The notes: generated by a model from the letters alone, not told the origin. Numbered from the stretch's first letter, positions 23,949 to 35,729 are shown. The stretch is 35,729 nucleotides of DNA from Nanohaloarchaea archaeon B1-Br10_U2g21 (GCA_001563915.1 LKMP01000010.1:1-35729); one strand, 5' to 3'. Numbers and translations are program-made.

Positions 23949-24084
23949 AGTTATTACTTGTTAGTAAGTACACTTAAAGGTTGTGGTCAGCCATCGATAT
24001 CTGAGAGTTTAAAGAAAAAAGAATTTTCTCAGTTTAAATAGGTAATCAATTTAATCAAAGACTCAAAATTACTCTTTATTGATA

Positions 24085-25185
24085 ATGTTTAATTTGAAGA
24101 GACGAAAGGGTCAGTCTGCGATTGAGTATTTGATGACTTATGGTTGGATGCTTCTTGTGGTTGCTGTTGTTGGTGGTGCAGTCTTCTCAATGGTGGGTGA
24201 ACAAAGCATAGAAAGTGTTCAAGGCTTTGACTCAAGCAGCGTTAATGTTCAAGATTTTGGTGTTTCAGTTGAAAATGGTTTGACTTTTTTAATGAGTGAT
24301 CCTGTGGGACAAACTAAAATTGATGAGATAACTGTAAGTAACTCTGATACTGGAAATATTACTTATGCTGTTAATCAGGAAGTTTCTGAACAAAATAATA
24401 TTAATTTGCCTGGAATTAGGCCATCAGGAGATAATAACGAACTGGAAATAAAAATAAGCTATGACTCTGCTAATTTAGAGAATTTAACGACTTCAGGAGT
24501 GGTGACGGGAACTCTAGAAGTAGATGAAAATTTCCACAATCATACAATGATGCTGGATGGCTTAGTAGGATACTGGCCACTAGATGAAGCATACAAATCT
24601 GGAGGCGAGGTATTTGACTTTTCAGGAAACCAGAATCATGGAAAAAAAGAAGAGAATCCTGAATGGGGTGAAGGCGTTCATGGAAGTGCTTTAGAGTTTG
24701 ATGGCACAAATTATGTCGGCATAGATGCTAATACTGGCGATAATTTAGATATTACTGATGACTTAACTTTGACTGCGTGGGTTACTGTTGAAGATACGAC
24801 AAGACAGTACGTAATTAACAGAAATGAGGATGCTGGATTTTCCAATACTCAATATCATATTGGTACAAATAGCGGAGAAATTGAGGTGACTATAGGAGGG
24901 GATGATTATAGCGTAGATTTTCCTGATTCGTGGGAGAGCACGTTTACAGATTATAGATTAATTGCTATGACTTGGGACGGATCTGATATAAGAGTTTATG
25001 GGAATGGAGAGCACTTGGACACTTTCAGAGAATCAAGTATGTTTTCACGACCTAATTTGAGAATAAGCGGAAGAACTGGGAGTAATGACTTCTACTGGAA
25101 CGGTAAAATAGATGAGGTTCGTGTTTATGATCGCGCTTTATCTGAGAATGAGATAAATAGTATTTATGAACAGGGAGACCAATAA
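24085..25185 (+). CDS. Class III signal peptide protein with LamG domain
   Basis: Pilin-like surface protein. The N-terminus FNLKRRKG/QSAIEYLMTYGW is an archaeal class III signal peptide, cut by an EppA/PibD-type peptidase before the Gln, followed by the hydrophobic helix (about residues 16-37) that packs into pilus fibres. Residues 40-150 are beta-rich. Residues 155-365 form a concanavalin A-like LamG domain (GLVGYWPLDEA, FDFSGNQNHG, ALEFDGTNYV, LTAWVTVEDT, IDEVRVYDRALSENEI). Such domains bind glycans, so the protein may contact a host or matrix surface. I use ATG at 24085; a TTG two codons earlier is in frame. TTTAAATAGG near 24034 is a possible TATA box. Confidence 0.85.
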   Translation: MFNLKRRKGQSAIEYLMTYGWMLLVVAVVGGAVFSMVGEQSIESVQGFDSSSVNVQDFGVSVENGLTFLMSDPVGQTKIDEITVSNSDTGNITYAVNQEVSEQNNINLPGIRPSGDNNELEIKISYDSANLENLTTSGVVTGTLEVDENFHNHTMMLDGLVGYWPLDEAYKSGGEVFDFSGNQNHGKKEENPEWGEGVHGSALEFDGTNYVGIDANTGDNLDITDDLTLTAWVTVEDTTRQYVINRNEDAGFSNTQYHIGTNSGEIEVTIGGDDYSVDFPDSWESTFTDYRLIAMTWDGSDIRVYGNGEHLDTFRESSMFSRPNLRISGRTGSNDFYWNGKIDEVRVYDRALSENEINSIYEQGDQ

Positions 25186-31208: not shown

Positions 31209-31557
31209 AAGAACAAGAAAGGCTGCTGAAGACGATATTGATGCCGCAAAATATTTGTTAAAAGGAAGCAAGTACGACCAAACCATCTCACGAAGTTATT
31301 ATGCCATATTTAATGCTGCAAAAGCTCTGCTCATGGAAAAGAATTCGGAGCCTAAAACGCATCAAGGAGTATCAACCGAACTCGGAAGACTTTTTCGCAA
31401 AAAACTTGACTCTGAAACCACTAGAAACTACTCAAAAATTCAAACTTGGAGAGAAGAAGTCGACTACGGAACAGCAAAAAAGTTTGGCAAAGAAAAAGCA
31501 GAGGAATCAGTTGAGTTCGCAGAAGAATTTCTTGCTGCCGTGAAAAAAATTACCTAA
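31205..31557 (+). CDS. HEPN domain protein (UPF0332-like), apparently frameshifted
   Basis: The frame ending at 31557 encodes a HEPN protein: DDIDAAKYLLKGSKYDQTISRSYYAIFNAAKALLM (in part) and TWREEVDYG, as in UPF0332 members, without the R-x4-H motif of active HEPN nucleases. It has no ATG at its head; an in-frame TAG is at 31198 and the first usable codon is TTG at 31255. The ATG at 31205, coupled to the upstream stop, gives KEQER in another frame and stops after 18 codons. One extra A near 31218-31220 would join the two into a normal start, KEQEKAAEDDIDAAKYLL. It is either a sequencing indel, a real loss, or a shift. Confidence 0.7.
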
Positions 31558-31634
31558 TAGGAGTTTGGCATCTGGATCTGCAACTTGTTGAGTATGTAAT
31601 TAGCTTAAATTCAAGCTCTTCGAAAAATAAAGTT

Positions 31635-32432
31635 ATGAAGGCTCAGTCTGCGATAGAATACCTCGTTACCTATGGCTGGATGATAGTAGTCGTTGGCATA
31701 GCAGGAGGAGCAGTAACACAAGTAATCGCACCTGAATGCCCACTAGAAGTAAGAGGTATAGAAGTCGGAGAACTACAAGTCGAAGACACAGGCCTAACAA
31801 CAGACAGCCGAATGGCATTCGTAATGCAAAGCGACACAAGCGAACAAATAACCGTAACACAGGTAAACATAAACAACATGGATACAGGGGCCGACAATAT
31901 TTCTCGGCAAGTAGGCCTACAACTAGATCCTGGCGAAAACGAACCCCTAGACGTGGCAGAGATCCAGCCGGAAGAGGGAGAATGTACTAGAGCGGATGTA
32001 CAGATTATGTATGATTACGGGCCTTTAGCAGGGCAGACAGTTTCAGGACAACTAACAGCTCCAACAGCATTCATAGAAGCAATAGAAGAAAATCTTAAGA
32101 CACGAGGAGGACAAATAGTCAGCCTGGACATAGGAGCCTCTATCACTCCGGAAAGCGAAGACATATGCATTGGATCAAACTGTCCTGGAGAACTCGACGA
32201 CGAATTACAGACCGAACACGAAAGATACGTTAACCGTTCAGGAGACACAATGCGAGGACCCTTAGAAGTAGGCGACCTCAATGCACAATGTATCGGAGAC
32301 TCGTGCACTGAACATGGAGAACAAGAACTCGAAGGATTCGTAACAACAGAAAACAATACAATGGACGGAACACTCGAACTAGAAACAATAAGGCCTGCAG
32401 AGGACATTCTATGCACTGGAAGCAACTGCTAA
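31635..32432 (+). CDS. Class III signal peptide protein with 41-residue Cys repeats
   Basis: Pilin-like surface protein of 265 residues. MKA/QSAIEYLVTYGW is a class III signal peptide with the fibre helix to about residue 30, and residues 35-150 are beta-rich. From residue 178 the protein is a repeat with exact 41-residue spacing: CIGSNC at 178-183, CIGDSC at 219-224 and CTGSNC at 260-265, where the protein ends. Each unit also holds a motif like RSGDTMRGPLEV or ENNTMDGTLEL, similar to phage tail-fibre repeats. The cysteine pairs could form disulfides outside the cell. The next surface gene starts 37 bp after its stop. Confidence 0.8.
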   Translation: MKAQSAIEYLVTYGWMIVVVGIAGGAVTQVIAPECPLEVRGIEVGELQVEDTGLTTDSRMAFVMQSDTSEQITVTQVNINNMDTGADNISRQVGLQLDPGENEPLDVAEIQPEEGECTRADVQIMYDYGPLAGQTVSGQLTAPTAFIEAIEENLKTRGGQIVSLDIGASITPESEDICIGSNCPGELDDELQTEHERYVNRSGDTMRGPLEVGDLNAQCIGDSCTEHGEQELEGFVTTENNTMDGTLELETIRPAEDILCTGSNC

Positions 32433-32469
32433 AAATCTTAATAAGCAAGCCTAACGAAAAACTAAAACA

Positions 32470-34401
32470 ATGAACTATGCTGCTGCAGCAATAATTTCCA
32501 TACTTCTCATATCTTCAGCAGCAGCAGAAGTAGAATTCAGAGACGACGAAGACGTACAATATCATACAGGCCTCGACATGAACCAGAACCCATTAATAGG
32601 CCTGTCCGATCCAGAAGAGGACTCTGAACCAGTACCATACGGATTTCTAAGCCAAGGATACGTCCGAAGTGATGGAGACTCAATGACGGACGACCTAGAA
32701 ATGCAAGGCAACATAATAGACATGGAACAAGGAAACATAGAAGACGTATCACAAATAGAAACAACAGACATATCAGGCCTACAATTCCTAGTACCAGATG
32801 AAGAACTCCAAATAACAGAAGATGTTGACATAAGCGGAGGGGTTCAAATAGAAGACTCATTGACTGCTGAAGGATCTCTAACTTCTCACGCAAGATTTAT
32901 TGAAGTAAGTGAAACGTCAGATGATCCTACAGGTTTCAGAATAGAACAAGATAATGAAGATGATCCTGATCGCGAAACATTGAACTGGCAAATTGGAACT
33001 AGAAATAGCAGGACTGATGCTTTATTTTTTGCGCCAGAATATACTACAAGCAGATCAGGGTTTAGAGATGCCTCAATACTTGAATTGAGGGAGGATTTTG
33101 CCAGAGTTAGGGATGATCTAAATGTCGATAATGATGTTGATGTAGGAGGCAGTATTGACGTAGGAGGCAATGCTGTTTACGCACGTAATATTAGGGGAGG
33201 ATCAGGAGCTAGTATGTATTTCGAAGATTCTTCAGGTAATGATGTTCTAAGGATGAGGAATGGAGACGGGAGATTCTATAATGATATCATAGTTGGTGAT
33301 GCTTCAGAATCTCCCGATGCATCTTTAGATGTGAGAGGAGACTCGATATTTGAAGAGGATATAAACTTGGATGGTAATAGCCTTCAAAACGTTGAGGAAA
33401 TAAGCGGAGACGCCGGTGAGCCAGTCACAGTAGATGGGGATTTAGAGGTGGATGGCAGAATAAATGACGGGTTTTATCAAAGTCCTGATTGTGTGGGTCA
33501 TGAGTATCAAAAAGGGGAGGGTTCAAGTAGTGAGCCATATATAGTGTTAAATGCTCACGATTTACAGTGTATTGAAAACGATTTAGATGCATATTACGAA
33601 CTGGGAAGAGATATTGATGCTGCAGGAACTCGTTATTGGAGCGATGGAGAGGGTTTTGAACCGATTAATGGTTTTGGAGGATCTTTTGAAGGCAATCATC
33701 ATACTATTTCGGACATCTATATAGATTTAGGGAGTTCAAGCGGCGCCGGATTATTTGAAGGGGCGTCATCGGGGGCAGAGTTCCAGAACATTAGGCTTGA
33801 TAATTTTGAAGTATATGGGGATGAATATGTGGGAGCATTAGCAGGAGATTTTTCGAGTTCTACTGAGATAACTAATATTTCTGTAACAGATGTGAAAATC
33901 AAGGCTACAGGAGTTAGAGTTGGAGGTTTGGCGGGAAGGCCAGGAAGGAGTAATATAAATAATTCTAGAGTTATTGGAGGGGAAGTTACATCCACTAGCG
34001 GTAATGTAGGAGGTTTAGCCGGCAGAACATCGTGGGATGCAGGCATTTATGATTCTTATACTGTTGGAGTTACAGTAGAAGGTTCAAGTTCTGTAGGGGG
34101 TGTTATAGGACATACTTCTGGCAATGATGGTGTTATAGAAAGAATTTTTTCAGCTTCAGAAATTTTTGGAGAGGGTAATGGGGCGATAGGTAATATAGCG
34201 AGTGATGACGATATAGATGCTGTTTATTTCGATGAAGATGCAGCAGGTACTAGCAGTAGTTCGGATGAGGGAGAAGCTTTATCAACTGAACAACTTACCA
34301 ATCATGATGCAGGTGACAGCTTGGAAGAATTTGATTTTGAAGAGGTATGGAAGACTCAGACGTATGATTATCCTGGATTGAGGTGGGAATATAATGAATA
34401 A
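32470..34401 (+). CDS. Secreted surface protein with tail-fibre-like and GLUG repeats
   Basis: Exported protein of 643 residues. A short signal peptide (YAAAAIISILLISSAAA, cut near residue 19) leads into YVRSDGDSMTDDLEMQGN (about 64-81), the same tail-fibre-like motif found in the gene upstream. Residues 100-330 are beta-rich with short Asp/Val repeats (VDVGGSIDVGGNAVYARN). Residues 350-425 (YELGRDIDAAG, FGGSFEGNHHTISD) and 440-580 match the GLUG repeat domain: VGALAGD, VGGLAGR, VGGLAGR and VGGVIGH recur about every 35 residues, forming a beta-solenoid. Such proteins are adhesins. The next gene overlaps its 3' end by 8 bp. Confidence 0.78.
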   Translation: MNYAAAAIISILLISSAAAEVEFRDDEDVQYHTGLDMNQNPLIGLSDPEEDSEPVPYGFLSQGYVRSDGDSMTDDLEMQGNIIDMEQGNIEDVSQIETTDISGLQFLVPDEELQITEDVDISGGVQIEDSLTAEGSLTSHARFIEVSETSDDPTGFRIEQDNEDDPDRETLNWQIGTRNSRTDALFFAPEYTTSRSGFRDASILELREDFARVRDDLNVDNDVDVGGSIDVGGNAVYARNIRGGSGASMYFEDSSGNDVLRMRNGDGRFYNDIIVGDASESPDASLDVRGDSIFEEDINLDGNSLQNVEEISGDAGEPVTVDGDLEVDGRINDGFYQSPDCVGHEYQKGEGSSSEPYIVLNAHDLQCIENDLDAYYELGRDIDAAGTRYWSDGEGFEPINGFGGSFEGNHHTISDIYIDLGSSSGAGLFEGASSGAEFQNIRLDNFEVYGDEYVGALAGDFSSSTEITNISVTDVKIKATGVRVGGLAGRPGRSNINNSRVIGGEVTSTSGNVGGLAGRTSWDAGIYDSYTVGVTVEGSSSVGGVIGHTSGNDGVIERIFSASEIFGEGNGAIGNIASDDDIDAVYFDEDAAGTSSSSDEGEALSTEQLTNHDAGDSLEEFDFEEVWKTQTYDYPGLRWEYNE

Positions 34402-35729
34402 AGCTAATTTAGCCGGTGAAAATGTAAAAGCAATAGTTTTTATAGCAATATTAATGATGATTATTAGCGCCCCTGTTTTAGGAGGGGATGAAAGGCCTCC
34501 AACTTTCAACGTCAATATTGAAGATCATAATAGTCCTGTAGAGGAAGGAGAAGAGTTTGTTGTGACTGTAAATGTTTTGAATACGGGGGATTCAGAGAGT
34601 ACAAAGGATGTTGGTCTTTATGTTTCTGGAAACCAGGAGAATCAAGAATCTGTTACTTTGTCAGCTGAGGAAGGCGAACAGGTTGATTTGAAATGGAATA
34701 CTGAAGAGGGTGATGCGGGAGAGCTAGAGGTGGAAGTTGCTACTGAGGATGATGAGCAGGTTACTACTATAGAGGTTGAAGAAGGAGAGCCTGAGCCTGA
34801 AGGAGACGTTTCAATTGAGTTTGATGAGCCTGAAGAAGAGGAATTATATGAAAATGATGAAGATTTAGAGGTTAGATGGTTCTCTGAGAATAATTATAAT
34901 GTTGAACAGCAATTAAAAGAATCTAAGATTGAATTAGGTGGTTTTTCTGAAAATGTCGATCAAGACGAAACAGTAGATACAGAACTATCAACAGTCACAG
35001 AATATAATATAGATTCAAGCGAACTAGATGATTTAGAAGACGAACACGAGTTTACAGTTACGGATACATGGGATCATGAGACAAAATCAAAGACAATGAC
35101 GGTAAAATTTGAATTAGAAGATGAGGATAGTATTTCTGGAGATGCATCTTTGAACGTTAATAAACCGGAGGAAAATAGTACTAAATATTCTGGTAACAAC
35201 TTGACTGTAGAGTGGACGTCTGAAAATAATTTTGATGATGATGTCGAGATTTTGAGATCCAAGGTCGAACTGGAAGATATAACAAGCAGGACTGTAGAAG
35301 AAGAGTTGGATGTTAGTAAAGTTGTAGATGAGGGTGGCACTATATCGAATTCCTTGACTTTTGATGCGGAGGAATATAGTACTTTCGACGAAGGAGAGTG
35401 GGCTCTAAATATAGAAGATGTATGGGAAGTTGAATCTAGCGAAGAAACGGTGGCATTTGATATGAGCGAAACACAGGAATCAGACGAGGAGGATGATTCT
35501 GACGGAGATGGTGATGATGCCTATGATAATGGAGAACAAGATGAGGAGTCTGAAGATGAGAATGGTTCCGAAGCCGATTCTGATGATGCCAGTGATACAG
35601 ATGAGGAGGATAGTTCAGAAGAGGAATCTGGTAATGGGGATGGCTCAGAGACTTCTGAAGAAGATAATGGGGATGGCTCAGAGACTTCTGAAGAAGATAA
35701 TGGGGATGGCTCAGAGACTTCTGAAGAAG
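34394..35729 (+). CDS. Acidic exported repeat protein, 3' end outside window
   Basis: Open from the ATG at 34394 to the right edge (445 codons), with no stop seen. It overlaps the upstream gene by 8 bp. A signal peptide or anchor (AIVFIAILMMIISAPVLG, about 14-31) is followed by a CARDB-like beta domain (about 36-140: FNVNIEDHNSPVEEGEEFVV, VNVLNTGDSESTK). Two similar modules of about 110 residues come next: one with SIEFDEPEEEELYEND and VRWFSENNYN, the other with ASLNVNKPEENSTKYSGNN and VEWTSENNF. A Ser/Asp/Glu-rich stalk then ends in an 11-residue repeat (NGDGSETSEED) cut by the edge. It is probably a cell-surface stalk or adhesin. Confidence 0.8.
   Translation, partial: MNKANLAGENVKAIVFIAILMMIISAPVLGGDERPPTFNVNIEDHNSPVEEGEEFVVTVNVLNTGDSESTKDVGLYVSGNQENQESVTLSAEEGEQVDLKWNTEEGDAGELEVEVATEDDEQVTTIEVEEGEPEPEGDVSIEFDEPEEEELYENDEDLEVRWFSENNYNVEQQLKESKIELGGFSENVDQDETVDTELSTVTEYNIDSSELDDLEDEHEFTVTDTWDHETKSKTMTVKFELEDEDSISGDASLNVNKPEENSTKYSGNNLTVEWTSENNFDDDVEILRSKVELEDITSRTVEEELDVSKVVDEGGTISNSLTFDAEEYSTFDEGEWALNIEDVWEVESSEETVAFDMSETQESDEEDDSDGDGDDAYDNGEQDEESEDENGSEADSDDASDTDEEDSSEEESGNGDGSETSEEDNGDGSETSEEDNGDGSETSEE
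35633..35729 (+). repeat. 33-bp in-frame tandem repeat
   Basis: Copies begin at 35633, 35666 and 35699, identical over the visible part, the third being cut by the window edge after 31 bases. Each codes for NGDGSETSEED. The unit length is a multiple of three, so copy number can change without breaking the frame. Confidence 0.92.

Follow-up and report, generated by a model that had tools for sequence, protein, structure and literature searches.

The closest described counterparts of the locus considered here, in which the gene of a pilin (P0001) is followed by that of a secreted protein (P0002), are the CofB–CofJ pair of CFA/III and the TcpB–TcpF pair of TCP. In these bacterial type IVb systems, as here, a minor type IV pilin that bears an additional domain at its C-terminus is accompanied by a secreted protein from the same operon, whose mature N-terminus (in TcpF and CofJ) hooks the trimeric minor pilin (TcpB or CofB) and is needed for attachment (PMC9565799). 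The N-termini of CofJ and TcpF are specific for their own pilin, whereas here several pairs share a conserved N-terminus (PMC9565799). The bacterial pilins end in H-type lectin-like domains, while the pilin described here ends in a Cys-motif domain that is not assigned to any known fold; in addition, its partner family carries phage tail-fibre modules, and attachment of the partner is putative. The PilV shufflon tip adhesin of R64 and TP114 is another minor type IV pilin; its C-terminal part is elongated and has a variable end that selects the partner cell (PMC9045228), and R64 PilV was seen by eye to hold IDMGSNNLNNVG, a stalk element of the same kind. PilV, however, is one polypeptide varied by DNA inversion, whereas here two genes are involved and no inversion system was seen.

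Modular pilins with lectin ends are already known (PMC9934059). PilB and PilC of Streptococcus sanguinis join a pilin to a grafted module (vWA and ConA-like lectin) that is placed at the tip by modelling (PMC8179133, PMC9934059); the likeness extends to a LamG pilin in the present window and its paralogs, but the P0001 module is not among the known binding domains and appears to act on behalf of a second protein. Proposals for how nanohaloarchaea and other DPANN archaea recognise and hold their hosts have pointed to pilus loci and to giant surface proteins (PMC6642349, PMC11291902), and virus-like attachment proteins have already been described in pilus loci of DPANN members. As in the locus studied here, the loci of Ca. 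Nha. antarcticus and other DPANN members place pilus genes of Nanohaloarchaeota beside virus-attachment-like (sigma-1-like) proteins, although, compared by description, those are coiled-coil proteins in machinery loci, whereas here tail-fibre-type proteins accompany stand-alone Cys pilins (PMC11291902). No account of Cys-domain pilins paired with tail-fibre proteins was found in the open literature, subscription papers and preprints lying outside the scope of that search.

The window, a stretch of 35,729 bases, is one whole contig (C11) of a genome of 816 kb in 24 contigs that is 92% complete (G000). Its two genes of interest, the second of which starts 37 bases past the pilin stop codon (Table 1), on balance probably form a surface cassette in which an accessory type IV pilin and a secreted fibre adhesin with a phage-type stalk work together in the manner of CofB–CofJ and TcpB–TcpF.

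Table 1. Features of the pilin and partner genes, and of a second pilin gene, in coordinates of the window
Feature	Position	Strand	Basis or remark
Second pilin of the window, C-terminal LamG (ConA-like)	24079-25185	+	PF13385 7e-19
P0001, 265-aa accessory type IV pilin (likely) with C-terminal Cys domain	31635..32432	+	ORF, translation
P0001 pilin part, residues 1-146, helix and beta sandwich	31635..32072	+	model, Foldseek
Cys domain, residues 158-265, proposed docking part	32106..32429	+	profile A2
CxGxxC no. 1, CIGSNC, residues 178-183	32166..32183	+	C178, G180, C183 invariant in A1
GDTMRGPLE, residues 203-211, tail-fibre-type motif	32241..32267	+	G203, D204, G208 invariant in A1
CxGxxC no. 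2, CIGDSC, residues 219-224	32289..32306	+	C219, C224 invariant in A1
NNTMDGTLE, residues 240-248, second tail-fibre-type motif	32352..32378	+	G245, L247 invariant in A1
CxGxxC no. 3, CTGSNC, residues 260-265, conserved C-terminus	32412..32429	+	6/7 members
P0002, 643-aa Sec-secreted tail-fibre-like partner	32470..34401	+	family A3/A6
P0002 Sec-type signal peptide, residues 1-19, MNYAAAAIISILLISSAAA	32470..32526	+	by eye
P0002 conserved mature N-terminus EVEFRDDEDVQYHTGLDMNQ, proposed plug	32527..32586	+	profile matches, R invariant
P0002 tail-fibre-type motif YVRSDGDSMTDDLEM, residues 64-78	32659..32703	+	
P0002 variable fibre/stalk region, no confident fold	32704..33490	+	weak PHROG match
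P0002 GLUG / M26_N-like region, proposed binding head	33562..34398	+	PF05342, PF07581

The 265-residue pilin-like ORF reported in the earlier note was recovered by ORF calling and translation, and its description as a pilin that carries an additional module at the C-terminus is borne out by the signal, the fold model and the Cys domain profile. The class III-type signal of P0001 (MKAQSAIEYLVTYGWM / MKAQSAIEYLVTYGWMIVVVGIAGGA) follows the pattern K-G/A-Q-S-x-x-E-Y-L, with a hydrophobic N-terminal helix, and its residues Q4, E8, Y9 and L10 are invariant in alignment A4. The monomer model, predicted from an 18-row alignment, contains a helix (residues 6-25) and a beta sandwich (38-146), with pLDDT mostly 70-91 over residues 31-146 and lower values in the helix. 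Foldseek places a type IV pilus of Pyrobaculum first (8fk7_A, E 6e-4), the sole PDB match below 0.001, with FlaF/FlaG among those that follow. Judged from its signal and predicted fold, P0001 is an archaeal type IV pilin of the class III signal type, with putative assembly into a pilus.

The N-terminal pilin region of P0001 recurs at 13 further places in the genome, making 14 in total (the others lie on C3, C4, C8, C14, C15, C16, C21 and C22, as loci L047-L055 and L147); a scan of genome contigs with P0001 returned just three distant pilins. The C-terminal domains found among the 14 pilins include LamG, GLUG, PQQ propeller and DUF285. The LamG pilin of the window also has a weak NCBIfam match to a TafC-type fimbrial protein, and a 473-aa pilin elsewhere in the genome bears a head of the same kind as the GLUG end of P0002. 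In a genome of 0.8 Mb, these modular pilins are a large display set. Assembly machinery matching a type IV pilin was found in the form of five T2SSF platform matches above cut-off, two of them directly before the gene of a 160-aa pilin without an added domain, which is likely the main pilin; P0001 and the remaining pilins are likely accessory. Despite the platforms and the many pilins, no PF01478 match for an A24 prepilin peptidase was obtained in the 92% complete genome, and the family may have diverged. An extra Cys pair (C35/C117) was considered as a mark of the Cys pilins alone and was dropped because the 160-aa pilin beside the platform genes has a pair of this type too.

Behind the pilin part, P0001 ends in a domain of approximately 108 residues with three CxGxxC and two GDxMxGxL-type motifs. 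The CxGxxC motifs begin at residues 178, 219 and 260, exactly 41 apart as the earlier note had stated, and three such motifs arose in none of 200,000 shuffles. The alternating TMxGxLE motif was also found, as GDTMRGPLE and NNTMDGTLE after the first and second CxGxxC, except that the first position of the second motif is T, not R/N. The two 41-residue units reach a gapped score of 35 against a shuffled mean of -17 (none of 3,000 shuffles was as good) and share just 8 identical positions in ungapped alignment. A tandem repeat with a period of 41 residues and variable copy number was nevertheless rejected. The TMxGxLE motifs are 37 apart (G208/G245) and the CxGxxC spacings of relatives range from 38 to 47, and 41, as far as the alignments indicate, is the spacing of P0001 itself rather than a structural period. 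Nor is the array cut short in a third unit, since family members generally end in CxGxxC or a variant close to it: six of the seven Cys pilins end in CxGx(1-4)C (CxGxC in G018) and one lacks the closing CxGxxC. One member has CITSQRSLDADQGC in place of a Cys pair. Variation in copy number was not observed either, as all members have the same two units and end motif, the full set being seen in the well-preserved ones, or a decayed form. In five of the seven members, same-position units are closer across genera than neighbouring units within a protein, the exceptions being G016:223 and G018, in which the units are irregular. Because same-position units score higher across genera than neighbours do, the two-unit design appears old and stable; on this comparison the two units predate the genera, and copy number is fixed in the sample examined.

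Residues 150-265 of P0001 show no confident fold in the monomer model, with pLDDT of about 40 over the Cys domain, and the monomer model of P0002, from an 8-row alignment, has pLDDT below 50 throughout and likewise no confident fold. Domains of either kind are often obligate trimers, and for this reason the failed monomer models neither support nor refute docking. Related sequences, the lack of which the earlier note had said would speak against its proposal, do exist, and the other outcome that it named, that no repeat structure is predicted, holds for monomer prediction alone. A PDB sequence search with the Cys profile returned no relative below E 0.68. Against PHROG, the P0001 module gave three tail-fibre matches at E about 0.2 (best 0.19), and its GDxMxGxL stretch matched a fibre profile over 18 columns with 40% probability; given the PHROG and PDB values, the domain was not filed as a phage tail fibre.

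The profile of the Cys domain (A2), built over P0001 residues 158-265 as aligned in seven proteins, was scanned across 394 genomes of the neighbourhood, and strong matches were obtained in three of them, with seven copies (one in G000, five in G016 and one in G018); a partly decayed relative is present in G024. According to this profile, the domain is restricted to three genera among the genomes searched. In G018 it sits on a different pilin backbone, which has the N-terminus GLTPVVSTVILIAIST and a weak UpsA match and was not matched by the class III pilin query; the domain therefore appears to move as a module. Its suggested occurrence in haloviruses was not borne out, since neither of two pilins queried against IMG/VR contigs had a viral match, and one chance match was obtained among phages.

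The arrangement of a minor pilin gene and an adjoining secreted-protein gene, as in CofB–CofJ, recurs in six of the seven Cys pilins, each of which directly precedes, on the same strand and adjacent or overlapping, the gene for a Sec-secreted protein of the EFR type (P0002, L042:13323, L043:5020, L044:2592, L045:4600 and L046:3695). The pilin of G018, with its swapped backbone, is among the six, and G016 holds five Cys pilins and four EFR-type partners; the exception, G016:343917, is followed by the gene of a Tat-type protein and not by a fibre. The mature proteins start with EVEFRDD, EIDFRSD, DMEFRSS, DLEFRDP, QLEFRTE and DVNIRDV (consensus xhEFRxxx), with R invariant in all six and NIR in place of EFR in G018; identity at the mature start is modest, at a pairwise mean of 39% over 12 residues, and falls to about 25% further on. 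Full-start matches to a profile of the mature start at E below 1e-16 were confined to the six genes behind Cys pilins, which match by construction as the profile was built from them, the informative part being the absence of further ones. Over the 28 genomes covered by the comparison of EFR starts, the genomes with Cys pilins and those with EFR starts are the same three, a coincidence of 1 in 3276 under independence, a figure that is post hoc and ignores shared descent. An orphan partner-like protein (DLKDTLEMYGPIQMNDN / TVDLKDTLEMYGPIQMNDN...DAATKKYVDS) is encoded at L148:6697-7572 in G023, with no pilin gene adjoining.

The same gene pairs bear on the idea that the Cys domain serves as the adhesive tip in its own right, in the form of a short stalk braced by disulfides, with the fibre being a separate surface protein that does no more than share the operon. 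A pilin with its own head would be the local habit, as the other pilins of the genome carry their LamG, GLUG, PQQ and DUF285 domains on the same chain, and no fibre gene follows one of the Cys pilins. On the other hand, the Cys domain is constant in length and motifs while the proteins that follow vary (279-643 aa, with differing far ends), the opposite of what is expected of a head facing different hosts, and the pairing is kept in six of seven cases across genera and on two pilin backbones; the idea is regarded as rather unlikely.

The kinship of the partners with tail fibres is clearest in G016 and G018, whose partners match PF03906 (6e-12) and PHROG tail-fibre families (to 6.6e-29, phrog_1640), and relatives of the partners occur in 48 phage records and 30 IMG/VR loci. 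The partners share the repeat DMNNNxIxNLxxPxxxxDAATKxYVD with the N-terminal module of T7-type phage tail fibres (PF03906; phrog_1640, phrog_2710), from which they differ in being Sec-secreted cell proteins outside a virus particle, P0002 being diverged. The matched profiles indicate that the homology of several partners to tail fibres is real. The relationship to tail fibres claimed in the earlier note thus holds above all for the partners, and for the pilin module it comes down to the short GDxMxGxL match (GDTMRGPLE also matches the partner protein profile). That note had further placed a related motif at the start of mature P0002; YVRSDGDSMTDDLEM is present, but YVRSDGDSM is not at the mature start, with EVEFRDDEDVQYHTGLDMNQN about 45 residues earlier. 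In P0002 itself, residues 204-275 match a tail protein (PHROG 33972) weakly, at E 0.047, the N-terminal part has no Pfam match, and the far end matches PF05342 (2.1e-6, just under its cut-off) and PF07581 (2e-4, above cut-off). A PDB sequence search with the 1019-aa fibre of G016 gave no match. In G024 and G025, tail-fibre-like secreted proteins adjoin genes for a T2SSF platform and a Pilin_N-type pilin, and thus a link between fibres and pili appears in further genera, with other N-termini.

Since tail-fibre modules are mostly viral, the cassette might be regarded as a virus or prophage remnant. This origin was rejected as extremely improbable: the cassettes lie amid housekeeping genes with no virus genes seen beside them, neither the pilin nor P0002 has relatives among IMG/VR viral contigs, and the partners carry Sec signals and are paired with pilins.

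The Cys pairs admit two further roles. C-terminal CxGxxC is found on both pilins and fibre-like proteins, as would suit a structural, disulfide-linked sheath or separate thin filament with subunits linked through these ends. Such a structure is improbable: C-terminal CxGxxC is missing from P0002 and three more of the six cassette partners, the GLUG and LamG ends point to binding, and G000 and G018 have just one copy each, as befits a minor subunit more than a main one. A metal or redox centre, with the pilin in a redox or electron-transfer role, would accord with three spaced Cys pairs and with the rarity of the motif, which closes 12 of the 377 ORFs of at least 120 aa in the loci examined (6 pilins and 6 others). 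It is very unlikely, as P0001 matches no known metal or haem family and the CxGxC end of G018 and the replacement of a pair by CITSQRSLDADQGC are tolerable for a disulfide and less so for a metal site. A variant of the pilus-borne tail fibre, in which pilin and fibre have in common a disulfide-built docking domain (their matching CxGxxC ends), with exchangeable host-recognition fibres, several cassettes per genome and presence varying between close relatives, is possible though not probable. CxGxxC C-termini were also recorded on tail-fibre-like or neighbouring secreted proteins (L150:3782-4702, L165:2259-5283, L063:1540-3153, L066:1800-2678 and L068:1882-2721) of G024, G009 and G016, that is, of genomes with and without strong Cys pilins. 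The motif may be a common end tag.

At 31557-31635 of the window, the pilin–fibre cassette follows closely on an MNT/HEPN pair. A genome of the same genus, G012, stays collinear with the window up to 31584 (27 bases beyond the end of the HEPN gene); from there on it has other surface genes and no cassette. G012, like G013, is an incomplete genome, but its lack of the cassette at this site is a direct observation. Downstream, an ORF for a large, acidic, secreted protein with tandem repeats of GDGSETSEEDN (34394-35729) runs off the contig end and is probably the cause of the assembly break. Proteins with Tat-type signals (SRRxFLKxxGLG) are encoded directly behind cassettes of G016 (L043:5911-7548, L044:2351-2578 and, on the minus strand, L042 about 2500-2900), and three in a row were found behind a fibre operon in G026 (L060:9672-13600).

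In the preferred reading, the first gene would provide a minor pilin, made of a helix, a beta sandwich, two CxGxxC/GDxMxGxL units and a closing CxGxxC, which would be built into the pilus either at the tip or at scattered points along its length. The second would provide a protein secreted through Sec, in which a short conserved stretch at the mature N-terminus is followed by a stalk, of tail-fibre type in several members, and then by a far end that varies (GLUG here). By analogy with TcpB–TcpF and CofB–CofJ, in which the N-terminus hooks a trimeric minor pilin, the Cys domain is assigned as a socket, probably an obligate, disulfide-held oligomer, into which the fibre would plug through its EFR N-terminus. 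The stalk would extend the far end, which may bind a neighbouring cell, most likely a haloarchaeal host, and the pilus would carry the partners or draw them together. Against this explanation stand the Cys pilin without a fibre gene and the one without a closing CxGxxC, the modest identity of the plug, the weak tail-fibre similarity of P0002 itself, the orphan partner of G023, the lack of a confident fold for the Cys domain or P0002, and the lack of an A24 peptidase match.

The recurrence of the gene pair in two related genera suggests that these cells may equip their pili with a virus-like grappling fibre for the capture of host cells. The cassette supplies two specific genes, for which a socket and a plug are proposed and key residues predicted, and thereby makes host recognition in nanohaloarchaeal symbionts testable. 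With five Cys pilins and four partners in G016, one organism may display different host-binding ends. If true, the proposed mechanism would represent an archaeal counterpart of the CofB–CofJ principle and a case of a cell using tail-fibre modules to bind another cell, and it would provide a marker set for the prediction of host range from genomes.
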